Of a stretch of 64,000 nt of DNA, positions 3,186-58,439 are shown piece after piece. The DNA comes from Gracilariopsis chorda (taxonomy: Eukaryota > Rhodophyta > Florideophyceae > Gracilariales > Gracilariaceae). Positions within the stretch are counted from its first letter, which is position 1, and the number at the start of each line of letters is the position of its first letter. The stretch lies in assembly GCA_003194525.1 (NCBI GenBank), contig NBIV01000283.1, forward strand, positions 30,270-94,269. Direction: 5' to 3'. The notes below the pieces were generated by a model. It ran no database searches. It was not told the DNA's origin and saw only the letters and a list, made by a program, of their open reading frames with translations. A program made the position numbers and the translations under genes.

Positions 3186-5403
3186 CGTCTGGCGTCTTCC
3201 GTCTACCTAACGAATTAGTGCGCCTAATCAGAGAATATTGCGCTATTTACACAAGAAATAGGGCGTTGGAATAGTAAGAATGTGGTAAAAAATCATGAAG
3301 GGTCTGCAAACCACCTCTAACATACTTAAACTGCCTGCACTTTCACCAGAATACCACTACTGGTTTTCATTTTCTGCCATCGCCCAAGATTACGGGCATT
3401 ACAGTGACGCGGTCACTGGTACATTTCGTAGGAACCTACTTATGAATCAGAACAGATCGCCAGCTTTTTCTGCGCACGCTCTTAACCAGTATCTTCGAGA
3501 TCGAAGCTCCAGACTTGTCGACGTTAAACTCTGCTTCGTGCTATGGACGCAATACCTTTTTATCAGCCCTTCGACCAGGGCGATATGTCGAGCAACCTTG
3601 GCCGGGGTCGAAGCTTCGACCTTCTCCACTTCTATTATGTGGACCGGTATACACTGGAGACCGCTTTGTGAAATGAACACATCCAGCCATCCTAGGAATT
3701 GACGGGCATCGAAAAACCGAATACGATGCTGTGCTTTTGTACTTATGGACGAAACAAAGGTTTGTACGAAGGCTTATATACCAAGTTTTGTAAGCGCTTT
3801 TTGTTATTCTGGAAGCACAGAATGGTTTTGAGAAACTTATTTTCTTCTCCATCGATTAATGCAGTAGGGTGACCAATACCATAAAGAGAAATGTTCACTT
3901 TGGCAGAGCACGTTTGTTTACAGGAAGGATACGTAAGTATCCACGCGTGACAGCAGCAGCGAGTACGGACTTTAGAGATGTTCCATGCCGTCTCTAGCTC
4001 TCGGAAACTCTTCTGGCATGGAAAGTGTTCCCAGACAGCCCAGCAAGTTTTATCACGAAAGAAACACAAATTCGTGCTATCGATGCTTTTCGGAAATGTT
4101 GGAAGGGCAGGCTACTTTAATGCGGAGAAATGCGTTGGGTTGCGGGTCGATGATGCCTGTGGATGCCAAGGCCGATTCCTTTGATACCATGGACATATTG
4201 AAAAGAAAACAAACAGAGAATGATACCAGCATAGATTGACTTTAGTGGTGTTCCCGTGTCATTGCGCATCGTAAGGGTAAAAATGATCCTGTAAAGCGCT
4301 GACGTTTAGTTATTTTCGCCGGGCAGCAGACGGTAGAGGTTTTAGGAGGCGCTTTGCGCCTGTTCTAATCATCGGCTTACCCAATTTGCGCGCACTTGTT
4401 TAACATTTTCTGTTCCGACGCTATTTGCATCATGTACAAAAACTGGTCTGCGCGTTTGAATGAAAGCAATGTTTGAGGAATATTGAAAGTTAGAGATTGG
4501 GTGTGACGATAGCGCGATTTTTGAAATGGCGCTGGGGTTTGCGTTGACTGTTTTAGTGCGATAGTGTTTCCATGGGGCTTTTCGCCGGAAAGGCATTTCT
4601 TTTTTGCCTCATAGAAAAGTTAGACCCCCTCATTCCATTAGACTGTAAAGTTGGGAGCTTTTGAGAGCTCAAGACGGTTTGTGCCTACGAGGTTTGCAGA
4701 AGAGTTGGTAGGGTTATGGAGATATTATCCTGCTGGGCAGGGCAAATTGGAACACTGTTCACGTACATCGCTCGTATCTCAGCGGTTATATGTTTATTAT
4801 AATCCTAAATCTGCTCCAATGAGAGCCCATTATTTTTCAAGACAGGGTGCTAAGTTTGGCAGTTAAACTTTGCACCACGACCGAAAAACTGGCTGGGCAC
4901 TCATTATTCCTCTAAATCCATTTTATTTGGAGACCTTGGGGAAAATAGAACGTTGCTTTCGTTCGAAACCAAAGTCTAACACTTCCAGCATGTTTCATCC
5001 ATCACCAACTGGTCGCCCACAGACTCCTAAAAACCCATATGATGGCTCTCCAGTGCATGGGTATCATTAACTTGCAACCTTTACAAGCTTCTTGCACGCA
5101 CTGCGTCTGCTTTCTGGTCATCACTTGAACCAATTGTGAAGACGTCTAAGCCAAGATTTTCAGCAGTTCCAGACCTGTTTGGCATACAAAAAGAAGAAAA
5201 CCGACTTTGGCTAGGTTCAAAGTCCCTAATGGGTACAGTAGCCATCGCTGGGTCAAGTATTTGCACACGCACCCCAACAAACCTATCTGTCCCACCCAAA
5301 CTGTGACTTCTCTCAGATCGGCCATCTTGACTTCTGTCGAAGAAATCAACTTCAACCTTCCTTTTTTTTCCTGCGTTCTTCCTTTGAAAAGCAGAACAAT
5401 TGA
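3186..5403. other. no recognisable gene
   Basis: Only short open frames lie here. A minus-strand frame at 3447-3680 and a plus-strand frame at 3985-4239 (84 codons from an ATG) have no motif I recognise. A small perfect hairpin built on AGGCGC/GCGCCT lies near 4345. The stretch 5081-5403 on the minus strand probably belongs to the C-terminal tail region of the neighbouring pogo-like remnant. I see no RNA gene. Confidence 0.5.
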
Positions 5404-45539: not shown

Positions 45540-45551
45540 CCTTGTGTCTAA

Positions 45552-45582
45552 CCCCGTTCTCGTAGGGTGATGAATTTCATCA
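45552..45582 (+). repeat. left terminal inverted repeat of DNA transposon
   Basis: 31 bp, exact inverted match to 56460-56490; preceded by CTAA (45548-45551). It lies 12 bp from the TATA box of the cysteine-rich gene. Confidence 0.85.
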
Positions 45583-45883
45583 TTTTGTTTTACTTTTGTC
45601 AGGGAATGAAGTACTCAACAGCATGTTGTCGAAACTGGACAGAATACACAACGCCAAGGTAGTAAAGATTGGTAAGTAATGAATCGTTCGTTTCTTGTTC
45701 TGCAATACGACGACGGGCATATCATACGATCATTATGTTCACATCATCATCTGACCGCTACTGGTTTGCCTCTCTCCGTAGTTTCTCAATTTCGTCATTC
45801 GTAATCTGTGCTCTCTTGAGTATTTTATCCGTGTGCCATGCATCCCAGCATTGTGAACATATTGCCTGCCTACATAGGCAACA

Positions 45884-46069
45884 CTACTGTTTCTGTTGCG
45901 CTCCTCCTTTCTTCCTGTACTTTTTCCCATTCTTTTTGATTGTGTGACTGTAGGAGCAAAGTGCCCAGTAGATGTCTTTCCATTTGACTTTGTAATGTAG
46001 AGACACATTTCCAAACCTTCGTTTTCTATCTTCATCACGGTTGTATTTCTCGGCAATGTCATGACGATA
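45884..46069 (-). pseudogene. 3' end of interrupted piggyBac-like transposase gene
   Basis: Directly left of the Copia target duplication the minus-strand frame reads YRHDIAEKYNRDEDRKRR, then SLHYKVKWKDIYWALCSY, and ends KKGGAQQKQ with a stop at 45884. It continues, in phase and without loss, the frame that stops being host sequence at 52511, once the insertion and one copy of CATTG are removed. The basic C-terminus fits a DNA-binding or nuclear tail. Confidence 0.6.
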
Positions 46070-46074
46070 CATTG
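46070..46074. repeat. target site duplication of Copia element 3 (left)
   Basis: CATTG immediately before the LTR, matching CATTG at 52511-52515 after the other LTR. A 5 bp duplication is the rule for Copia integrases. Confidence 0.85.
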
Positions 46075-46409
46075 TGTCGTGAAATAATACGTTTAAAAAA
46101 AGGGGCGGCCTGTAGTGGTAGCTAGGGGCGGCCCAAAAAGGATGATTCCTTTGCTTGAAGAGGTAGAGTTGATGATAATAATGGGTTGGGGAACAGACGA
46201 GAGGCAAAGGCCGAGCTCTGTTCCCTCCTTTTATACTCAGAGAGAAAGACGCTAGTCGTCTTTCTCGGTAGTTAGAGTCCTAACATGCTCGCATGAATGC
46301 GGCATTGTAAGCAGACATCACACCATCCCCAAGGATGGTGAGATGGTCCACTCCATCTCCTTCTTCCTCACCGTCTGACAACGACGGTGAGCGAAGCTTT
46401 ATCCTCACA
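46075..46409 (-). repeat. 3' LTR of Copia element 3
   Basis: 335 bp, beginning TGTCGTG and ending CTCACA on the plus strand. Matches the other LTR except for about three substitutions and absence of a 39 bp segment. Confidence 0.9.
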
Positions 46410-46431
46410 TTCCCTTCTCTTTTCGTATGGC

Positions 46432-49400
46432 TTACAATTGTCGCATAAAATCACGTGTAACTAGTTGATTAATATCTAAAACGCATGTGGAAGTACTTAA
46501 AATTTGGTTCATAGCATCACAGTTCTTAACTTTGGTAAAACAATCGGCGGGGTTGTTGGCGGAGGTGATATACCCAAGATCGGAAATTTCGTGGTTCGAG
46601 TAGGCTTCACGAACTGCAGAAATGTCAATCATTAGTCGCTTTTCAGATGTCGATGAGCTTTTTGTTATTACGTCGAATAAACTTTTTGAGTCAGTAAGCA
46701 TTGTGATTGGAATTTTCTTCCCAATTATTGACTCTAAGTCATGTTTGATAAAGTAAGCTATATCGAATGCATCTGCAAATGCGTATAGCTCTCCTCCTAA
46801 AACGGATCTGGTAACGCGCCGGCTTTTGTGACTTGAGAAATGAAGTATATTGCAGTTATCGAACTTGTCCACGAGAAGAATAATGAATCCAATCTGGGAT
46901 GAATTCTCTGCATTGTTGGCAAATGATGAATCGGAATATACCTTGAGGCGGAGTGAATTGATATCAAGTTTCACATAGTTCAGATTTACATTTTGACTTT
47001 GCTGAATATGTTTTACGACTTTGTTGATGTTCTTCACATCTTCGCTTGAGAAACATTGTTCCGAAACTTGGGCAGCCATGTTGACAGCACAGCAAATATC
47101 TGGTCGCGTGTGGGTCAACCAAGCAAGTTTATGTCTCAATGAACGGAAATCAGAGAAGGTGCAATCTTTTGGAAGAATTCGCAATCGTTTGGCATAATGT
47201 TCCTGACTTAGTGAAAATCCGTTATCGGTTTTGCGTACTCCTACGCCTGCGAATAAAGCGGAATCCATTTCTAAGTGCTTTGATTCAAACTTCTGAACGG
47301 TGAGCTTTGCCTGTTGCAGGAATTGATCGGTTCCGCATTGAAGGAGGTCATCTACGTAAACACCGGTTAAGCCAATGAGCTTTGCCTCTTCATGTTTCAT
47401 AAACAGTGACAGATCTCCTTTCGTCGGGGTCATTCCTAGGTCTTCTTTCAGATGAGTTGTTATTGTTCTGTACCAATAGCCTCCAGAGTCTGAGAGTCCA
47501 TAAAGAGGGCGGAGAAGTTCCAACAACATGTGTGCTGGAAGTTCCAGTTCTTTTGGAGGCTTTAGGTATACTTTACGCATGAGCTTCTGTGCGGATTGCA
47601 AGTATGCTTGACGAACATCTGTGTTCCATACTGTTTATCCAAGAATAGCGGCGACTGTAACGAGAATTCGGGTTGAATATTGTCTTAGATTAGGCGAATT
47701 GTGCACTAGAAAAGCTTTTTCTGGATTTTTGTGCCCTTGGGCGACAAATCTGGCTTTAAATATCTCTTCATCAGTCTCAGGATTTTTGATGGCGAGCACA
47801 AAGCGGCCAGTGAGGATATTGGCGTCTTCTGACACTTCGTCTTGTCTAATGACTTTCCACGTTCCGCGCGAAATTAATCCTGCCAGCTCTTTTCGTTTAG
47901 CTTCACTGAATGCTGGTAGGTTCCTACGGTGATCGGAAGGACCTAACACTTCAGTGATTTGAACATCATAAAGTTCAAAATCACCAGGAAGTATTGGTTC
48001 GAGACAAGTATGAAGGTTGTCCATTAGTTCGTCACGATGAAAAGGTTTGCCCTGCGCAATAGAATGTTGGACTGTTTCACCATTGCGATTGAAAAAACTT
48101 GTTTGTTATCAATTCTTACAATTTTATAGGGTCCAGTCCATTTTATTGGCTTCAAATCTTCTCGATAAACTAGAACATCTTGTCCAACTTTCAAGCTTGT
48201 TGATGCGGCAGATGGAATGCGAGCGACGATTGCACGGCGCAAACAAACTTCCGAAGTGATGGTTTCCATCTCAGTGCGCGCGATTTGAAGAGCTCTCATT
48301 CGCTCCTCATGATTTGGAAGTTCTGTGCTAAACGGTGGAAAGCGAGGAAGAACTCCAAATACGAGTAGTGAATGTACAAGTCCTTCGGGATTCATTGTAT
48401 CGTTCATAGCCTTGACAGCAAGTCGAAGGGCTAAGGCGATGGGGACATCGGGCTCGCTATATCGAATCTTTTGGTAGATACGACGTAAGGGTCCATGGTA
48501 CCGTTCACCGGTTCCAAGGGAATTATGACTTTCAACGCCTGAGAACTGTAAGGTGATTCCAGCCATGCTTGTCAGTTCTTTCCATCGAGCGGATGTGAAT
48601 TGTCTGGCTTTATCCAGTCTCATCTTGTCTGGATAGCCGGTGTATAATGTGGCCCAACAACCGAGAAATGCGTACCAGATTGCTTCAGTGGTCTGACTCT
48701 TGAGGAAAACTGCAGAGCTGAAGTGCGTTTGTGTGTCGACAACGTGTAGAACTGGCGTTTTGTCCAAGAACATAAGATCCAAAGCAATTTCACTGTTGAA
48801 TATTATTTTGCCTCAAATGGATACTTGGAAGGACTGTGGCCGGGGTGTAAAACGTTGGCACGTGGCACATGATTTTGAGATATGCTAAATGAGTTTCCTG
48901 GTCTCAACCGTTGCATGTTCTGGCTTTGCTCGGGAGATCAAGTTGAAAAGCTTGTTTGCGCTTGGATGGTAGAAGTGCATTTGCATTTTTCGGAGTTCAC
49001 TTTTTGTGTAAAGAATCTCAGAGAAGTCCCATTCTAAGTACATATGACCGAATTTCCGCGTGATTAGTATCAACCAATTGAACTTCTTGTTGAGTAACAT
49101 GTTTTCCACGTTGTCAGGTACAAGAGCGTGTACGTCCAGGACATCGAGTCCAATAAGAAGAGGTACAGAGGGGTCAACGACGTCAATCTCAAGTGGAAGG
49201 AAAGTGTTGCCAGGGATTGGAATGCGTACTTGCATGGTTCCATGGCTGAAGTATATGCCATCTCCAAATTTAAAAGCTTTGTTGGAGTGATTCAGCTTAA
49301 ATGGAATGCCTACAAGTTTACAGTACGCTTGGGCTTGTTGTTTTCCTACTACAGATTGTTGTGCGCCAGAATCCAGACATGCGCCTTGAAATTCGCGTCG

Positions 49401-49602
49401 GTTTCTCTCGAATGAGCTTGTCTTCACGTTGTGAATATCAACAAGGTTCCAACGAGGTGTTCGTGAACTGTATCGTGCTTGCTTTCGTGTACAAAAACGA
49501 ATGATTCGAGGTGAGCCATTGGAGGACTTGTCTGGTCCTTTCTTGTTCTGCTGCTTGGGAGGAGCACTACGGCAGAAATCGTTAGTACTCCCAGTTAAAA
49601 AT
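46432..49602 (-). pseudogene. Copia element 3 Pol, interrupted
   Basis: From 49602 pol is open in the -1 frame of gag. Protease: ACLDSGAQQS (Asp-Ser-Gly) and PLLIGLDVLD (49360-49130). Integrase: FYHPSANK and CATCQ zinc ligands, Asp in ALDLMFLD, Asp in MRLDKARQF, Glu in GTGERYHGP. In-frame stops TAG (48885-48887) and TGA (near 48800) cut the zinc finger region. Integrase ends with TAA at 48024-48026, overlapping by one base the ATG (48022-48024) of the next frame (TAATG), which encodes the RT N-terminus (48024-47635). A TAA separates it from NTDVRQAYLQS; then LLRPLYGLSDSGGYW, GVYVDDLLQCG (intact YVDD), and RNase H (YSDSSFANN, GGELYAFADA) ending at 46432. The three stops are otherwise isolated in an undamaged frame. 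Confidence 0.8.
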
Positions 49603-51199
49603 CCTCAAGGCAATTCGAGAGGGAAGGTTCGCTACTCTGCGTTCCAAAATTAGATGCAAAGAATTGCTCGGAAGGATCAGAGTTTTCGTTGTCTGCATTA
49701 ACATCTGCCTCGCCGTTGCAAGCAAAGAATGTTTCCGCGCTTTCGAATTCATCGGAATCACTGGACTCTTCGAGCTGTTGGCAGATTTCATACAGGACAC
49801 GTTTTAAAGCCTTGTTCTGATCCTTGTAGCCGTTGCGTTGCAAATAATGCACACGGTTGGCGGCATTGTTGGTGAGGTCCTTGCGTTGCCTGCATTCGGC
49901 AACAACATGTCCGAATTTACCACAACTCCAACAGGTAACATTTCGTCTGCTTTTGGATTGACGAAAGTTTGTCCGGTTTGTGGAATGCGGGTGACGTACG
50001 TATCGGGATTGGCCAGCATAGAACGTTCCACTCGTGTCAGAGTTCTGAAAATCGTCGGTGGAAAGTGAGTCCAACTGAAGACTCTTTTGATCTCGCATGC
50101 GACCGACTTTCTCTTCTTGATCGAGTTGAATTGCAGCTTCCAACTGACCGTAAAGTTCATGATAACTAATCAGTCCTGCATTGGCCCTGCTGCAGGCATC
50201 TCGCGCCCAGGAATTACCAATTACAGCATTCTGTATATATTCGATTCTGTTGCGCTCGGATCGGCAGTGCATAGGGCCTTGTGGGGACAACTTCGAAATT
50301 TCTTCGTGGAGTTTCTCCAAAGCGCCGCTTAATGAAGAGCTCTTTGAAGCAAATTTTTGGATTCGTAAGTTACGTAAATAGGCAGCAATGCGGTTCTGAC
50401 GGGAAAGAGAATTATACTCCTTTTCCATTACTGCTGAAGCTTCCCTGAAACTTCGCACTCTGCCATCAACGCTTTGTACGTAAAAACGCTTCGCGTTTCC
50501 ACGCAAAAGGTGGTGTAAATATTGGAGTCGTTGATGGTTGGATAGATTGTAATCTAGAGCGGCATACTTATATTCGCTCAGAAATTCCTCCCAACATTCA
50601 ACAAGGGCTCCTGAAAATTTAGACGATTGATCTTTGAAACGAGACGCGGTATAGTGAGCTATCCTGTCTCGGCTGTCTCCAAAGTTCGTTTGTGGCTCAT
50701 TGGTAGCGTTGTGAGCACGCCATGGCTGGCGTTGGCGATTTTGCTCATTTACGCGTTTCGCAGGTGAGAGCTCCCGTTGTTGCTCAACCTCAGTTTCTTC
50801 TTCGACGTCTGCAAATCTCTGTGGTTGCTGTCGGGTAGGCGGAGCAGGTGCCGGCGTTTGCTCGAATAAATCTATAGCAGTGCAAGCATCTTCTAAATGA
50901 GACTCCTCAAAAATTGTTTTGGCAATTCTTTTTAAGAGGTGACCGCTTTCATGTTCTGCGAGAGTAATTCCACGATCTTCTATGAACTTTGCAAACTTAC
51001 GCATAAGCGATCCATTACTTAAAATTGTAAAAGTGAGTAGCTTATCTGGAGGGTATTCAGTTCTCAGAAGTTCGATTACTTGAGCAGGCCCTGCTTGGGT
51101 ATTGTTTTCCTGAATATTCTTAATAAATTCGATAAATTGTCGTTGTTGCTGATTTGCATACCTAACATTGGTAGTAAAATTTCCGTTAAGTGGCGGCAT
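49595..51199 (-). CDS. Copia element 3 Gag
   Basis: 534 codons from ATG at 51199 to TAA at 49595. The N-terminal 100 residues are helical; a Gln/Pro/Arg-rich linker follows (about 120-170); the middle carries a capsid-like helical region (EFLSEYKYAALDYNLSNHQRL). Zinc knuckle CWSCGKFGHVVAEC (canonical CX2CX4HX4C, about residue 425). An acidic tail ends LEDF. The last codons GAT TTT TAA form a T-run (49602-49595) where a -1 slip would enter the pol frame, which is open from there. Intact. Confidence 0.8.
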   Translation of the reverse strand: MPPLNGNFTTNVRYANQQQRQFIEFIKNIQENNTQAGPAQVIELLRTEYPPDKLLTFTILSNGSLMRKFAKFIEDRGITLAEHESGHLLKRIAKTIFEESHLEDACTAIDLFEQTPAPAPPTRQQPQRFADVEEETEVEQQRELSPAKRVNEQNRQRQPWRAHNATNEPQTNFGDSRDRIAHYTASRFKDQSSKFSGALVECWEEFLSEYKYAALDYNLSNHQRLQYLHHLLRGNAKRFYVQSVDGRVRSFREASAVMEKEYNSLSRQNRIAAYLRNLRIQKFASKSSSLSGALEKLHEEISKLSPQGPMHCRSERNRIEYIQNAVIGNSWARDACSRANAGLISYHELYGQLEAAIQLDQEEKVGRMRDQKSLQLDSLSTDDFQNSDTSGTFYAGQSRYVRHPHSTNRTNFRQSKSRRNVTCWSCGKFGHVVAECRQRKDLTNNAANRVHYLQRNGYKDQNKALKRVLYEICQQLEESSDSDEFESAETFFACNGEADVNADNENSDPSEQFFASNFGTQSSEPSLSNCLEDF

Positions 51200-51336
51200 G
51201 ATGAACTAAACAAATTACTACAGTGTTTTGTATGCTAATATAATAGAGTACTGTGTTTAACTAAGCTTTACTCGTACAAAATTAGCCTATTGGTATTGGT
51301 TACTAATCGTAGAGTAATACGCAAAAGCAAAACTAT

Positions 51337-51972
51337 TTATTTATTAAAATTTTGATTGTAGAGCACTTTGAAGTGTGCTTTGCCGTTTTTGTGGCGCTTC
51401 AAATGATGATGCGACTCAAATGAGCACTTACAGGTAGCACAGTAAGGCGGAGTACGCTTACACTGCACGCGGTTGCGGTGTGTTTTAGACTGACAGTGGT
51501 CAAAAAAGGTTTTTGCACTGTTGCACTGAATTTTGCACAATGTGCAGAAGCGTTTGGCACGAGCCACACGCGTGGTCTTCTTCTTTGGTTGCAATTGGTC
51601 AGCCAAACACTTGGCCTTTTTCCTGTGGAGCTTCTGTATGCCACTGGTGCTCGGCTGCACTGGCACTTGTGTGTGTTGGCGGCGGCGAGGCACTGGTATT
51701 TCTTCGGCTTCAAGGTCAAAGACACTTGGCGGTTTGCAGCTTGATGTAGTTGAGCGGTGGACCGGTTCTGATTCACTGTCCACTTCTGAAGGGGTCAGAT
51801 GGTCCAATATGTTCGGTCGTTGCTGATTGGTTGGTGGCGCTGGTAGTACAGCAAGGTGGTGACGATGCGGGTAGGCTGGGTGCTCTACGGTTACCGTAGG
51901 ATAGATTGAATTATAAATAAAAACAGTGCCTGGCTGTTTACGAGCCACTGTAGTTATATGCTGATTGGACAC
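51337..51972 (-). CDS. accessory two-finger C2H2 (JAZ/matrin-type) protein in Copia element 3
   Basis: 211 codons between the 5' LTR and gag of Copia element 3. The first half is Pro/Ser/Thr-rich and probably disordered, with basic patches (PRRRQH, KKKTTRVARAKR). The C-terminal 70 residues contain two zinc fingers of identical geometry, C-X2-C-X12-H-X5-H: CTLCKIQCNS...FFDHCQSKTH and CATCKCSFES...KRHKNGKAH. The X5 His spacing is that of JAZ/matrin/U1C-type fingers, many of which bind dsRNA or RNA. Such an ORF upstream of gag is not part of the standard Copia plan. The first codon is GTG; a polypyrimidine tract and TTTTAG directly upstream could be a splice acceptor, so a leader exon may supply the ATG. 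Frame intact, suggesting selection or recent acquisition. Confidence 0.75.
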   Translation of the reverse strand: MSNQHITTVARKQPGTVFIYNSIYPTVTVEHPAYPHRHHLAVLPAPPTNQQRPNILDHLTPSEVDSESEPVHRSTTSSCKPPSVFDLEAEEIPVPRRRQHTQVPVQPSTSGIQKLHRKKAKCLADQLQPKKKTTRVARAKRFCTLCKIQCNSAKTFFDHCQSKTHRNRVQCKRTPPYCATCKCSFESHHHLKRHKNGKAHFKVLYNQNFNK

Positions 51973-52136
51973 TAAAAGAATATAATTTAGAAAAAATGTG
52001 TGGTTAGTAATTACGTCTTATACGTATTGGTTAACAACGCGTAATCAGTACCAACAGAATTCTTCAATTCTTTAGATGTCGAATGACTTACTTGGAAACG
52101 GTAAAAGTCGACGATTATCCACGGATAATTCCGGAA

Positions 52137-52510
52137 TGTCGTGAAATAATACGTTTAAAAAAAGGGGCGGCCTGTAGTGGTAGCTAGGGGCGGCCCAAAA
52201 AGGATGATTCCTTTGCTTGAAGAGGTAGAGTTGATGATAATAATGGGTTGGGGAACAGACGAGAGGCAAAGGCCGAGCTCTGTTCCCTCCTTTTATACTC
52301 AGAGAGAAAGACGCTAGTCGTCTTTCTCGGTAGTTAGAGTCCTAACATGCTCGCATGAATGCGGCATTGTAAGCAGACATCACACCATCCTCGGGGATGG
52401 TGAGAAAGCAGGACGCTTTCTCACCATCCCCAAGGATGGTGAGATGGTCCGCTCCATCTCCTTCTTCCTCACCGTCTGACAAGGACGGTGAGCGAAGCTA
52501 TATCCTCACA
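52137..52510 (-). repeat. 5' LTR of Copia element 3
   Basis: 374 bp. Compared with the 3' LTR it has 39 extra bases at about 52384-52422, a partial tandem duplication of the ACCATCC...GGATGGTGAG hairpin with the insert GAGAAAGCAGGACGCTTTCTC, which is itself a hairpin. Outside this, about three substitutions separate the LTRs. Confidence 0.9.
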
Positions 52511-52515
52511 CATTG
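52511..52515. repeat. target site duplication of Copia element 3 (right)
   Basis: CATTG, identical to 46070-46074. Confidence 0.85.
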
Positions 52516-55500
52516 GTTCTTCGACAAAAGCCACAGGGTTCAACATCGGGACATAGGCATTTCCGTTATTACTTGCTGATGTTGCCGTTCTTGTGCTTGC
52601 TTCTGCTACTTCAACGTACTCCTTAGCCAGCTGCCGCGCATAATCTGCAAATGAAGAGCATTTGGAAACGTTCTTTCGGAGCTGCCTGTAGCCTTTGTCA
52701 CTGGTTTCGTCATAACTCTTTGGGAGATGTTCCTTCTTATGCGCAAGAGAAAATCGATGAACCACAGCTGCATTATTAACTTGAGCGCATAACAGGGGAC
52801 CAATGATGCTCACAATAGAATTTTCACCCATGTTCGTGCAACGCAAGTGAGTCATCGCCCTGCTAAACTGGTCAATGCTCTCTTTGAGGTAATTCCAATA
52901 CACAAACGTCGTTGGAAGTATCATTCGCGCGGGAGGAAGGGTTCCATAACGTAAAGAAAGTGAAAGATAAGCGTGGCTCAGTCCGTAATAGGAAGCGCAA
53001 GAGTGAAGATCAGAGGCGTACGACATTTGCAACAAAGTGTCATGTACTTTTGGTATGTCTGAAGAATCTTTTCCAACCCATTGAAATGCTCTTACGCGAA
53101 CGGCAGACAAGAGGTAGCTGTAGTTATTCACTAAACGCGAATGAAAGTGCAAAATTGTAACATATATCGCTTCTTCAACACCACAATTGCTCCCCTTGGC
53201 CTGTATGAAAACATCATGACTCCGATTCAAGCAAACGGAATGGTGCAAACATTGTTTCCGGTATTTGCTCGACGGGACAAGCTCATGAAATTGCTTAATA
53301 GAGGTTTCCTTCAGCCCGGCATTCTTCAGATAAGTTAGTGGAGCATAGTTGTGTCGTCTTTGGCGTGCAGCACCAATTTTGTTTAGAGAAGTCATGGTTC
53401 TGATATTTACAGCACATACCTGCATTTTCCCTTGATGAGTAGCAAAACATAAAATATCATCCGGACTGTCGGACATCATCAGATCCCTCTTAGAAGATAA
53501 CAGACCAGTGGTGCGAATGGGTTCGACTTTGAAACTGTGCTTGGTATACGAGAAGTTCCGCCTATCAAACTCAGTACCCCCAATGACATCATGTTTTTCA
53601 AAGAATGACGGCAAAGCCTTCAAAACCTGAGACTCCTTGATATTGCCCTCTTTCATCCCAACTGTGCTTACAAGGAGCTTCATCACTCATGACGCTATGG
53701 AAGCCTTGTACAGGGAGTTTAGAAGCTCATTTATTTTTGTATCCATCCTTTGCGACTCCGTGAGTTCTTGCGTTGCTCTTATAGACACCTCCACAGTGTT
53801 GTTCTTCACAGACGTTTTCAATTCCAAAGCTTTCTCAATAAACTGTCTCTTGAGGAGAGATTGGGGCTGTCGGTGACCTACAGCACAAAGAAGGGAAAGG
53901 ATCTCATTTTTTATCTTCGTTTGAAGACTAATGGCAGTTGCTGCCATTAAAGAAGACACAGCATGTTCTCGTTGATCTAACGTGGGGTTCGAGTTCAGCT
54001 TCATATTCAGAGAGTGACTTATTAGAATTAACTTAGACATTAAACTCTGCTTTGTGCCATTTGCATCCTGTGGAAACGTTAGCGGCCTATGATCAATCTG
54101 TTTCCCACTTATGAGAAACGAAAGCGCTTCAACGTATTCTTCATGGTTCTCTGCCAAAGCACGGAGAAACGTCTGTGTCGTGCGGGAAGTGTACTGAAAG
54201 GCACGACTTAAGAACCAACCTGACTGAAGAAGCGTGACTTCTACAGTGCCTGATAACGCTTGCATGACCTTCAAACTAGCAATTGAGTTCGTGCCAAGAC
54301 ATCCACTGTTGGTGCTGTGTGTATCATTTTCAGTCACAGAGCTGTCATAAATCAAATGAAAAAGCTCCTTACCAACTTTGGTCCTTACTCCTTCGTAGCC
54401 AGCTTTCGGAATGAGAGTAAAATGTTCTGCGGAGAACAAACGATCGTTGTTATGGTACACAGCAGCAATGCGGCCACTCACACTTTCGCGATAAACAATG
54501 GCCTCAAATTTTCGTCCTGTTATGGTCTTAGTCTTCTTCTTGGCGCTATAGATTGCGCGGCAACCTGATTCGCTCACCATAACGCTTTTGTGACGTTTTC
54601 GAATTGCCCCATGACCAAAACCGAAAGGGTAATCCAGACTACGCTTGCAAGTGCCAATTCCAGTCGCTCCAATACGATTGGTAATATAATCAACAGTGCT
54701 CTTTCCATTATAATCTCTATCGGAAGCAAACAAAGCATCAGTCATTGGTCGCACGGGTCCTGGGGTAGGCACTTCTTGTACCAGCCTAACCAAACATTCC
54801 CAAACGTTAATGATTTTCTCACCAGGTCTCGAATAGTGACTGGCTAAAAACACCGGATTCAGAGCGAAGCACATCGCGTTGTCGACCGGACCTAAAGACT
54901 TTTGCGGATTATTAACGTGAGACATCATGGTCAATTGTGCAACTGCTCCGGATCGTAGTCTTTGGTGGTCATCGTCTAAACAGAATATTGTCAACCCAGG
55001 TACGTACAGAAAAAGTCTATTCGCTGCAGCCAATTCATCTTCCAGTTCAGTAATCATTGCGTCGGCCCGTTTCGGAAAGTTACTTCATCCGTCTCCAAAC
55101 TTTTCCACCCGCTGTTCCCGACCCACAGTACAAGACAATGCCCCCATATCTCTGCATAGCTTTCACCGGTAATGCCCATTTGAAAGAAGAAATCTTTGTT
55201 TCTCTTGGCCGTTATGGCGCTTACTGACTAGGAGTAGGATGCTGACAATACATGGAGAATCAAAACTACTTTGAACTCCAAAGGTGTCGTTACTTTCTGT
55301 CTTCTTTGCTTCAGAACACGATTTAAATTTGAAACAACTTTCAGCATAACATATTCTGGAAGAAACACGTCCAATACACTTATTCTTGATAAGTTTGTCT
55401 GTGTTATTAAGTTTCATACACCGATTTGCTCCTCAACTTCTCGTTTGATGCGTTCTAATATTTGATTTGCTTCTGAATGGAAACGCTTGCTAAGTGATTC

Positions 55501-56172
55501 ATTGATACCTTCAACATCAATTTTCAAAGATTGAAAAGGTGAAGCGTACTCCCAATCTTCCAGACCTTCTAAGTGCCCTCAGGTTCTGTTGCTCAAAGAA
55601 CCGTTTTTCTCATGATGTTGTTCGGAATATGGAATAGAGTCAATGCTGTCGTCTATTAGAGTTTCACCGTCTCCGTTGAACAAAGACGACCACACATCTT
55701 CAATTACAATCTGTCTTGCATCAAGGACATTGGATAGGGTAGATATATGTACTGTTTGCTGGTTGTCAGTGAAACCTTCGGTATGCAGCTGGCGAATTTC
55801 TTCTTCAGTAACGGTGTTATGTTGATCAGAGTATAGAGAACGGTCTGCTGAATTATCTGAATCATGGGTTTGCGCTTGTTCGTTCTCAGGGTTATAGACA
55901 CTGTCACTATCCTCACCTGTTGAGTTGTAGGAAAGCATAATGTTGACTTGGTTTGAAAGATTTGCAGTTCTTGAAACTGCCTTAACAGTATTTGTGTCTA
56001 CAACTTGTACTGTTTGCAGATCATCGGTTAAACTTAACTGATGTGGTGGAAATTGAACAGCCGTGGGAATGCAATGGTTTGGTGTTGACAAGACTGCTCC
56101 AGATTCGGGACTTTGATTGTAGTCCTCATCAAGAGACAATTCATGACCAGACTCTCTTGTCCTGGCAAGCAA
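52511..56172 (-). pseudogene. piggyBac-like transposase, 5' portion, frameshifted
   Basis: Minus-strand parts, in order: acidic N-terminus 56172-55579 (SLDEDYNQSPESGAV ... NSADRSLYSDQ); a helical piece near 55570-55430 (LEDWEYASPFQSLKID); a Cys-containing piece 55417-55163; then FFFQMGITGESYAEIWGH near 55180; then the catalytic core 55057-53687 with LTIFCLDDDHQRLRS (first Asp) and DALFASDRDYNGKS (second Asp). After a TGA at 53687 it changes frame and continues 53683-52511 with YWNYLKESIDQFSRAMTHLRC and PLLCAQVNNAAVVHRFS, like the Y-x-x-x-x-x-x-VD/ID and NA-x-x block near the end of piggyBac transposases. Three or four frame changes make it non-functional before or after the Copia insertion at 52510. 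No good ATG is evident near 56172 (TTG there). Confidence 0.6.
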
Positions 56173-56283
56173 GCGAAGGTATCAATCTGGAGGCATCGTG
56201 ATCTGCAAATTGCGCCGGACTGCCTTTCAGAGTTTGACATCGCGTTGCGCAACGATTGGCATGAACTGCGATCTTGGGAGGAT

Positions 56284-56459
56284 TGTTGTATATTCCACTG
56301 GGTGATTTGTGGGTCCCGCTAGGTGAGTCGTGCGTTCCACTGGGTGAGGTTTTGGGTGATCTCACCCTGATCACGGGTGAGATTCACCCACCAGTGGGAC
56401 TCCTCACCTGGCAGGGTGAAGTGGGGCCTCCTCACTCCAATTTCACCCCAAAAAAAGGG
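56284..56459. repeat. subterminal GGGTGA/TCACCC repeat cluster
   Basis: Between the transposase gene and the right inverted repeat the hexamer GGGTGA or its complement (or GGTGA) recurs roughly ten times in about 175 bp, often as CACTGGGTGA or CTCACCTGG. The terminal repeat itself contains GGGTGATGAATTTCATCA. Clusters like this usually serve as transposase-binding sites in large-TIR DNA transposons (inference). Confidence 0.6.
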
Positions 56460-56490
56460 TGATGAAATTCATCACCCTACGAGAACGGGG
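56460..56490 (-). repeat. right terminal inverted repeat of DNA transposon
   Basis: 31 bp ending CTACGAGAACGGGG, followed directly by CTAA (56491-56494). Exact inverse of the left repeat. Confidence 0.85.
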
Positions 56491-57851
56491 CTAACCTACC
56501 TAAGGATTGCTCTGACAAAGAGCAGGTTGACCCCTTAGAATACATCAATAAACGCACATTTATTTCCCTCCGAACGACTAGCCAATGGTAATCAAAGGAT
56601 TTGCCCTACTGGCACGAATCGGTCGAGCTCGTGTATGATCTGTCACTCTCGACAGCCTCAAATTTTATCAGCCCCATTGAACCCGTCTCACACGTGGATA
56701 TCTCTGACGGCCGGCGAACAGGCAAATCTTTGCTGAGTCCAATCAGGCGGTAGTCTTCCAATCCCGTGTACACCGTGTCGATTTTCGGGCAAATGGAGCA
56801 CAAAATCTCTTCCAAAAAAACCAATTGACATTGTCACGGGTCATATTAATGTGCTTTAATGCAGCCTGTATTATGCACAATTTTTGCCCAAGCGTGGTAG
56901 AATAGCATCTTTACGGTCACGCAAATGGCATAGTTGTAGGTAGCGAACCTCTGTTTGGGACATATCGGCCAGGTGTTAGACGATATTTAAAACGAAGAAG
57001 TAGAGTGAAATTAGTTGTAGGTGGCTGCTTGGACAGAAGTTTTTTCAACTTTAGGGTACGTTCTAGCTTAAGTACATAATCGTCAGCACATTAAACAATA
57101 GGTAGAATAGAAGCGTATCCTATTCAAACAACAAATTAAACTAAGTATCGTACAACCTACGTATACTTTTCTAACAAAAAAGGTATAGTTCAATTGTGCA
57201 TACGTAGGCTCCGCACTACTGCAAACGTATACCCTTCTAAAAAAAATAGTTTTAAACTATGTAGTGCATACGTAGGCCACACAGTTCTACAAAAGTAGAA
57301 CGCTGTAACAAGAATAAGAACTAACTATACGTTTCATACGTGGGTGATTCGTACTTGATATGTATTGACCTCTTAAACTAAGACCGAATAAGAATGCAAT
57401 GCATATGTACTTTTTGAAGTACTACGTATGAAAACTATCAAGGTACTGCTGGTGTCAGGAACATCTCTAGACAATGAAGACAATATTTATAGGTATACAA
57501 GTAGAAACGGCCTTCGGCCGTGGGCGGCGCTGCGCGCCGCTGAGTAGGGGTGACTTTGGGGGATCTGCAGGCCGCTTATGCTCGCTAACGCTCGCAAACG
57601 ACCTTCAGACCCATGAGGGCCGCGGCGCCGAGAGTGAATATAGAATAGAGTAGCAATTGGGCGCCCATGCGATTGTGATTGGCGCGCACTGCAGTTGTGC
57701 ATAGAGGGTACAGTAGATTTTAATTGGCTGGCGCTGTCAAAATAACTGCAGTTCCAGCCACTGTGCAGCGGTGTGGGTGGCACTGCTGCAGTGCCAGCTA
57801 CTTAACATCTGCGGCATTCAACATGCAGCAGCCGCCAATGAGCTCTGAGCT

Positions 57852-57886
<35 letters not shown>

Positions 57887-58439
57887 AAATTTTTTGATTG
57901 GCGGGAGGCGTGAAAATTGCATGCACTGAAGGGGGCGTGCAAGGGGTTTTTTTGGCGCAACGCCTTCCGTCAATCAACAACACCCCCCTCATACATGTGT
58001 AAATCATTATAGTACGGGGGTGTTGAGATATCAGGCGGGAAACTGTTGTGCAACACCAGTTCTATACTGAAGGGACAGAAACGGTACATGTTCCATCGAA
58101 AGGTGATCACTAAAACTCTCAAACTCTCTCCGGTTCTCGTAGTCCGACATGAGCCCTTTTCCGCATTTACCGCCATCACAACATGGTGAATGCCGGTCAG
58201 GAGCAGGCCGTTGTCCAAGACAGAATATACAGCCCGTGCACAATCGAGACATAACCGATGGGCTTGCGCAGGTGGACTTAGGAACTAAAGCCGAGCTTCC
58301 ACAAAGTTTTATGGGACCTCATAAACCTGAACATATTTATTTGAACTCCTATCATTCTTCCGGCATTCAACAGGAACGAGAGAGGACAGTTATGCGGTTC
58401 TCTGGGAGACCTCGCCAAGTTACTCACTATGGAGCAAAA
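56491..58439. other. no recognisable gene
   Basis: AT-rich to 57480 with repeated GCATACGTAGG(C/T) words near 57205 and 57265. At 57510-57600 lie GC-rich short inverted repeats (CGGCCTTCGGCCG, GCGGCGCTGCGCGCCGC). Short frames on both strands show no motif. The frame at 58149-58448 may be upstream material of the Helitron remnant. Confidence 0.4.
57853..57886 (+). repeat. (TGC)n microsatellite, about 11 units
   Basis: Uninterrupted TGC/CTG trinucleotide tract of 34 bp. Not within a supported reading frame. Confidence 0.95.

Follow-up and report, generated by a model that had tools for sequence, protein, structure and literature searches.

The closest described systems to the element reported here, a DNA transposon split by a Copia retrotransposon in Gracilariopsis chorda, are piggyBac transposons, nucleases of the YqaJ/lambda-exonuclease family (PF09588, TIGR03033), and ISL2EU transposons. 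The element lies in a 64,000-bp window (G000:C283:30270-94269, by which we mean the whole stretch of DNA analyzed) of an assembly of 91.3 Mb in 1,081 contigs. The gene content of this assembly probably indicates a red alga, with seven phycobilisome-linker and 15 chlorophyll-binding matches, and a diatom host was rejected because a silicon transporter had no match. YqaJ/lambda-exonuclease enzymes are normally free-standing recombination nucleases, in which SPD, E-x-K, and Q motifs have recognized roles. As described in the excerpted text of PMC7351741, the transposase of Trichoplusia ni piggyBac has the catalytic residues D268, D346, and D447, with G444-G445 preceding D447, and an insertion domain (372-433) that interrupts the fold after strand 5 and before the GG-D447 helix and that contacts TTAA, and a palindromic internal repeat binds its Cys-rich domain. 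According to the excerpts of PMC4482050, ISL2EU (PHIS) elements are DDE transposons with a YqaJ domain, as in our case, but that domain is a separate open reading frame, the duplication is AT, a THAP domain is present, and the elements are reported only from animals.

We interpret the window element as one member, now dead and nested, of a family of cut-and-paste DNA transposons that is related to piggyBac and whose transposase carries a YqaJ-like nuclease between its second and third catalytic positions (D2 and D3), a reading to which we assign a probability of roughly 0.72. We refer to this family as F1 and to a second, 21%-identical nuclease-bearing family as F2. The family features that we observed were inverted repeats with a CCCC tip (the T. 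ni piggyBac tip likewise starts with CCC), a 4-bp NTAN duplication, many copies, and a nuclease-bearing DDD transposase with a Cys-rich tail. The window element spans positions 45552 (left tip) to 56490 (right tip) and has a perfect 31-bp terminal inverted repeat, CCCCGTTCTCGTAGGGTGATGAATTTCATCA; removal of Copia and one CATTG leaves a transposon of 4,498 bp. The original prediction, made from the letters of the window, had proposed such repeats with CTAA on both sides, an enclosed transposase with LDDD and SDRDY motifs, a transposon of about 4.5 kb, and a Copia element with a CATTG duplication inside the transposase gene, all of which we could read directly at the coordinates in Table 1. The window copy of the transposase is dead, with an in-frame TGA in its main body at 53687-53689.

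The protein was followed in other copies. Only one unbroken F1 copy was seen, an uninterrupted frame of 1,351 amino acids on contig C177 (L064); a copy on C147 (L065) is open for 1,155 amino acids and loses its frame near the Cys-rich end, and a 985-amino-acid open frame from C86 (P0001) matched 58 places in the genome. F2, which came to light because it passes the PF09588 cutoff, has an open frame of 1,115 amino acids in the genome, 1,051 of which were analyzed. Both families have a common layout of a piggyBac-like helical N terminus, D1, D2, a long insertion with the nuclease, a GGVD helix with D3, and a Cys-rich tail. A single stop-free frame runs through all of these parts in L064, as does a single frame from D1 to the tail in F2. 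The F1 catalytic motifs are LDDD (D1), ADRGY (D2), and GGVD (D3), and in those aligned F1 rows that have letters at the position concerned, LDDD was retained in 11/11, D2 in 10/12, and the aspartate of GGVD in 14/14. In an alignment of L064, L065, P0001, and the F2 protein L060, we found LDDD, the D2 aspartate, SPD, E-x-K, Q, and the D3 aspartate to be invariant; three Cys residues of the tail are also invariant between F1 and F2, and the cores of the two families matched in profile comparison (E value of 1.7e-4). The tail contains CxxC...CxxC...CxxCWDxWH, but no zinc profile exceeded its cutoff there (IBR, 13.4 bits against 24.3).

F2 is itself a transposon. Four copies diverge directly after ...CTAGGG-ATAT, both tips (CCCTAGT) of the C19 element adjoin ATAT, and the F2 tip pattern had 9 matches genome-wide and 0 in the control. 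When the compared stretch is divided into 100-bp blocks, copies L060-L063 share 98-100% identity in most of them. Because the four compared F2 copies are nearly uniform and ATAT stands beside the right tip in 4/4, the F2 sequences (L060-L063 and L073-L074) suggest recent activity of this family.

The most unusual part of the transposase, overlooked in the original prediction, is the domain between D2 and D3, which by its sequence is a YqaJ/lambda-exonuclease-like PD-(D/E)XK nuclease domain of predicted activity. The F2 domain matched YqaJ (PF09588, 8 matches genome-wide) at 31.4 bits against a cutoff of 22 and matched TIGR03033 with an E value of 2.5e-4, under the cutoff of that family, and the F1 and F2 nucleases matched each other in profile comparison (E value of 8.5e-8). 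In F1, the SPD, E-x-K, and Q positions of these nucleases are preserved but the match falls below the Pfam cutoff, and in both families the domain lies inside a transposase. In L064 it occupies residues ~845-1030, and D2 and D3 are 622 residues apart, compared with 122 in an ordinary piggyBac element of the same genome (L055). The nuclease thus occupies the slot that corresponds to the small insertion domain of piggyBac. The best PDB matches of the nuclease profile, Tako8 propellers (E value of 4e-7), were rejected as spurious because no stretch passes alone.

The 23-bp F1 tip, searched across the whole 91.3 Mb with up to three mismatches, had 25 matches compared with 0 for the reversed pattern used as a control. 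Manual merging of these matches left 17 distinct insertions (C306 and C374 being grouped with C283, C872 with C549, and C336 with C561), the two ends of an element counting once. A central TA was present in the four bases before the tip in 13 of the 17 (4.7% expected in the window; binomial probability of 1e-14), and TTAA was present in 1/17. The four without it are C294 (TAAG), C80 (CTGC), C176 (CGTT), and the left end of C45 (ACAT; ATAT at the other end), all lacking the central TA. Both flanks were read for eight elements: CTAA in the window, TTAG in C86 and C561, TTAT in C7, ATAT in C36, ACAT/ATAT in C45, TTAA in C177 (L064), and TTAC in C147. The duplications were identical in seven of these, with C45 as the exception, and only C177 has TTAA. 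C7, whose tips are 10.1 kb apart, serves here as evidence on the duplication alone, since no transposase row came from its second half (L036) and it lies outside the 58 matches of P0001. Since the outer bases of the tetranucleotide agree in 8/8 paired elements, the duplication comprises four bases and not TA alone. The target of F1 is NTAN, not TTAA; a 4-bp duplication centered on TA, as in piggyBac, is found in both F1 and F2. The search with the tip repeat that had been suggested thus recovered further copies, but these have different flanking duplications, an outcome that the original prediction had named as refuting it; all of the duplications fit NTAN rather than a single fixed site.

Palindromes with arms of at least 6 bases were found within 60 bp in 9 of 12 tips tested, and in 8/12 no more than 4 of 300 shuffles reached the same strength; the two L065 tips in this test were taken three bases too far out. 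No such palindrome was present within 60 bp in L034, in L052, or at the F2 right end. Because a palindromic repeat binds the Cys-rich domain in T. ni piggyBac (excerpts of PMC7351741), a similar use of the F1 tip palindromes is plausible by analogy. The C177 element was also observed to lie inside another inverted-repeat pair (L064 positions 62-124, 4569-4595, and 4716-4801), perhaps an older transposon.

F1 resembles T. ni piggyBac (PDB 6x67/6x68; PMC7351741) in its 4-bp TA-centered duplication, an apparently helical N-terminal region, a D-D-D site with a GG-V-D helix, a C terminus that is likewise rich in Cys, and a palindromic site inside the tip. It differs in its NTAN rather than TTAA target, in a D1-D2 core that the piggyBac profile does not recognize, and, together with F2, in a D2-D3 insertion that is far longer and contains the YqaJ-like nuclease. 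The three catalytic aspartates, with the third in a GG-x-D helix, are invariant in the four-protein alignment. PF13843 (cutoff of 22.4 bits) matched the F1 N-terminal region over profile positions 4-98 at E values of at most 1 in four of seven pieces (L045 at 24.4 bits, over the cutoff; L047 at 22.3; L050 at 20.8; and L065 at 19.2), but not in the window piece, L048, or L064, and no protein searched matched across D1-D2. F2 matched the other end of the profile (positions 303-349) at 15.0 bits, below the cutoff. With a profile built from the GGVD regions of F1 and F2, T. ni piggyBac 6x67 was the only PDB match at an E value of 10 or less (E value of 0.019), and 6x67 also ranked first among PDB chains for F2 alone (E value of 0.3), with TKGGVD aligned to TKGGVD. 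A match of F2 to the ordinary piggyBac set (E value of 0.017) was rejected, as it consisted of 15 residues in the wrong register.

Ordinary piggyBac-like elements are also present in this genome (119 PF13843 matches, up to 178 bits in the loci examined, L054-L059). They resemble F1 in PF13843, a 4-bp TA-centered flank, and palindromes inside the tip, and differ from it in lacking a nuclease, in a D2-D3 interval of 122 residues, and in their TGTCTAT tips. In five of the six loci examined, CTAG rather than TTAA was found at both ends, and the CTAG-plus-tip pattern had 525 matches, compared with 4 in the control.

A number of results weigh against our interpretation. The D1-D2 core alone matched no Pfam family, profile comparisons with ordinary piggyBac elements from this genome did not support a relationship (E values of 0.14-0.18), and the tail, compared with theirs in hhalign, had an E value of 0.36. 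Against the PDB, a profile of the N-terminal half plus core found nothing, and the whole-protein profile found one unrelated match (E value of 5). Single-sequence AlphaFold predictions for two window frames had mean predicted local distance difference test scores of 34.6 and 34.3 and were useless for the fold. Among F1 proteins, only L045 matched YqaJ, at 17.1 bits and below the cutoff of 22; L064, L065, and P0001 had no YqaJ match in the Pfam search, and both residues of E-x-K are kept in only 6 of the 13 F1 rows with letters there. Recent copies had a ratio of nonsynonymous to synonymous substitution rates of ~1 in all regions, which is expected because these copies are dead and is uninformative on selection. 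Finally, a search for an empty site of the window element was negative, with 0 matches in the genome for the joined-flank pattern.

An ordinary piggyBac element whose TTAA duplication had mutated to CTAA, which is close to the view of the original prediction, would account for the 4-bp duplication, the CCC tip, and the piggyBac-like pieces, and L064 has TTAA on both sides, with one further TTAA end elsewhere. We consider this explanation very improbable, as six tetranucleotides are each identical on both sides of independent insertions and the 622 residues between D2 and D3 hold a nuclease where ~100-120 residues would be expected. Because paired NTAN duplications are not explicable by parallel mutation, this explanation is refuted unless the other copies were misread. 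An independent DDE superfamily that lacks overall homology to piggyBac and has converged on a 4-bp TA-centered target, CCC tips, and a GGVD-like motif deserves more weight and is in our judgment unlikely. Such an origin is consistent with the core having no known profile match, with the failed comparisons to the ordinary piggyBac elements of the genome, and with TTAA not being required, but not readily with matches to both ends of PF13843 in the right order (the one in F2 being below the cutoff) or with the in-register match of 6x67 at the catalytic D447 helix. We therefore do not file F1 as piggyBac proper, because TTAA was tested and not found to be its rule and the D1-D2 core lacks a known profile match; the sequence comparisons support a distant relationship to piggyBac. 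The label "piggyBac-like" thus stands as distant kinship, based on one copy above the PF13843 cutoff and the GGVD-region profile, and not on the window piece or the ordinary piggyBac comparison; likewise, the PF13843 search that had been suggested for the translated core passed the cutoff with the N-terminal piece of one other copy but not with the D1-D2 core or with the two main window frames, which had no Pfam match of note.

With regard to the nuclease, ISL2EU, where YqaJ is a separate open reading frame (excerpts of PMC4482050), provides a precedent for a neighboring captured gene, with the apparent fusion being an artefact of reading. This is scarcely credible here given the uninterrupted frames of L064 and F2 and the presence of the transposase's own D3 helix downstream of the nuclease. 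F1 also differs from ISL2EU in its 4-bp NTAN duplication. More weight belongs to the possibility that catalysis by the domain does not matter and that it is an insertion with a structural or DNA-binding role whose active site is dispensable, although we hold this to be doubtful. The poor retention of E and K is in its favor, as is the N-x-R found in place of E-x-K in both the window copy and its sister on C306, a change that must be older than their separation. However, SPD is kept in 11/13 and Q in 14/14 F1 rows, and the motif residues are invariant between the intact-frame F1 and F2 proteins. In a comparison of L042 with L052, in which the proportion of synonymous differences (pS) is saturated (0.75-0.91; 0.76 in the nuclease), the proportion of nonsynonymous differences is 0.28 in the nuclease, similar to 0.23 in the DDE part, and 0.36 in the linker before the nuclease. 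Retention of E-x-K in 6/13 rows, compared with 11/11 for LDDD and 14/14 for D3, indicates that the nuclease decays readily, and we read these sequence patterns as probable long-term constraint on the nuclease among active elements, together with its frequent loss from copies that are dead.

The claim that both insertion events can be ordered also held. Contig C306 has the same transposon insertion at the same site without Copia and with a single CATTG, and window positions 45645-46074 and 52510-56735 are contiguous in it. C306 and the window are 97.5% identical over 1,605 bp (the left flank and first element bases), the right flank being the same, and on a third contig, C374, the right flank and the right end of the element match those of the window. 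Because C306 lacks Copia and has one CATTG, the transposon inserted first; the C283 and C306 loci (alleles or a duplication) then separated, and each later acquired its own insertion. The window copy would thus have inserted at CTAA, decayed, and been hit by Copia after separation from the C306 locus. The break that Copia makes in the transposase falls a short way upstream of the Cys-rich C-terminal part. Copia has long terminal repeats (LTRs) with TG...CA ends, a 5-bp duplication, and the order gag, protease, integrase, and reverse transcriptase, and its LTRs differ at 3/335 aligned bases and by one 39-bp indel. An extra frame of this Copia (51337-52017, minus strand) has two C2H2 zinc-finger stretches (zf-met, 33 bits). 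The insertion particular to C306 is ~8.5 kb long and lies near the left end of the element (C306:15160-23680; parts in L042 and L043); our search around it revealed no target-site duplication. Some short segments of this insertion are similar to window positions 57496-58000, and a (TGC)11 microsatellite lies at 57853-57886 of the window.

Table 1. Features of the window element and of the Copia retrotransposon inserted in it (window coordinates)
Feature	Position	Strand	Basis or remark
Target-site duplication CTAA, left	45548-45551	n/a	
Terminal inverted repeat, left, 31 bp	45552-45582	+	
Transposase C-terminal Cys-rich piece, severed by Copia	45767-46072	-	tblastn with L064 protein; one stop; first Cys of CxxC lost (YWALC)
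CATTG, Copia target-site duplication, left copy	46070-46074		
Copia retrotransposon within transposase gene	46075-52510	-	Missing from sister contig C306
Copia LTRs	46075-46409 (335 bp) and 52137-52510 (374 bp)		
Copia reverse transcriptase frame	46432-47634	-	Pfam; RVT_2, 54.4 bits
Copia integrase frame	48024-48812	-	Pfam; rve, 30.5 bits, just below cutoff of 32.6
Copia aspartic protease frame	48885-49604	-	Pfam; 21.9 bits, below cutoff of 26
Copia gag frame with CCHC zinc knuckle	49595-51205	-	Weak Pfam matches
Extra frame between Copia 5' LTR and gag, C2H2 zinc finger	51337-52017	-	Pfam
CATTG, Copia target-site duplication, right copy	52511-52515		
Transposase main body (D1, D2, insertion with nuclease remnant, D3 helix)	52508-55252	-	Further lesions
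KESID, equivalent of GGVD motif	52871-52885	-	D3 kept
YqaJ-like nuclease remnant (KESQ, SPDD, VNIRT, YRKQCLHH)	53240-53638	-	E-x-K changed to N-x-R
SDRDY, second catalytic position (D2)	54710-54724	-	
LDDD, first catalytic position (D1)	54968-54979	-	
Transposase N-terminal part, with stops	55144-55956	-	tblastn with L064 protein
Subterminal palindrome, perfect, arms of 11 around one base	56456-56478		Tip positions 13-35
Terminal inverted repeat, right, 31 bp	56460-56490	-	
Target-site duplication CTAA, right	56491-56494	n/a	

By analogy with piggyBac, two transposase subunits would pair the tips, the DDD site would cut via a hairpin, and the element would join target strands four bases apart around the central TA. 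With lower confidence, we suggest that the nuclease replaces or enlarges the piggyBac insertion domain; as a guess, it may act on DNA ends, most likely by trimming the broken donor site, which might then be repaired from the homologue so that a copy is kept behind. A two-nuclease transposase of this kind, in which a PD-(D/E)XK domain was domesticated as a piggyBac-type insertion domain acting on transposon or donor ends and its acquisition accompanied a change from TTAA to NTAN, is a tentative proposal that we think has the odds against it. Since the T. ni piggyBac insertion domain contacts TTAA (excerpts of PMC7351741), the nuclease may by analogy be connected with the looser target. A necessary or causal link is disfavored, since CTAG flanks occur in this genome at ordinary piggyBac elements that lack a nuclease.

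What appears to be new, as judged from sequence, is a piggyBac-like transposase with a built-in exonuclease-like domain and a target looser than TTAA, whose known kin would be piggyBac and the YqaJ nucleases. We found no description of a piggyBac-YqaJ fusion in a literature search with subscription journals, Repbase, and Dfam outside its scope; the available passages of papers naming both piggyBac and YqaJ were domain lists and a reference, with no fusion, and no literature naming both DDE_Tnp_1_7 and YqaJ was found. No relatives were confirmed in viral contigs or prokaryote genomes with pattern searches, which reach only fairly close relatives. PiggyBac is a standard tool of genome engineering, valued for its strict TTAA targeting and seamless excision. 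If our interpretation is correct, a piggyBac relative that follows a looser 4-bp rule and carries an enzyme where T. ni piggyBac has its TTAA-touching insertion domain (excerpts of PMC7351741) could help to show which parts of the transposase set the target. It could also allow one to ask whether a DDE transposase can enlist a second nuclease to direct how the donor site is repaired.

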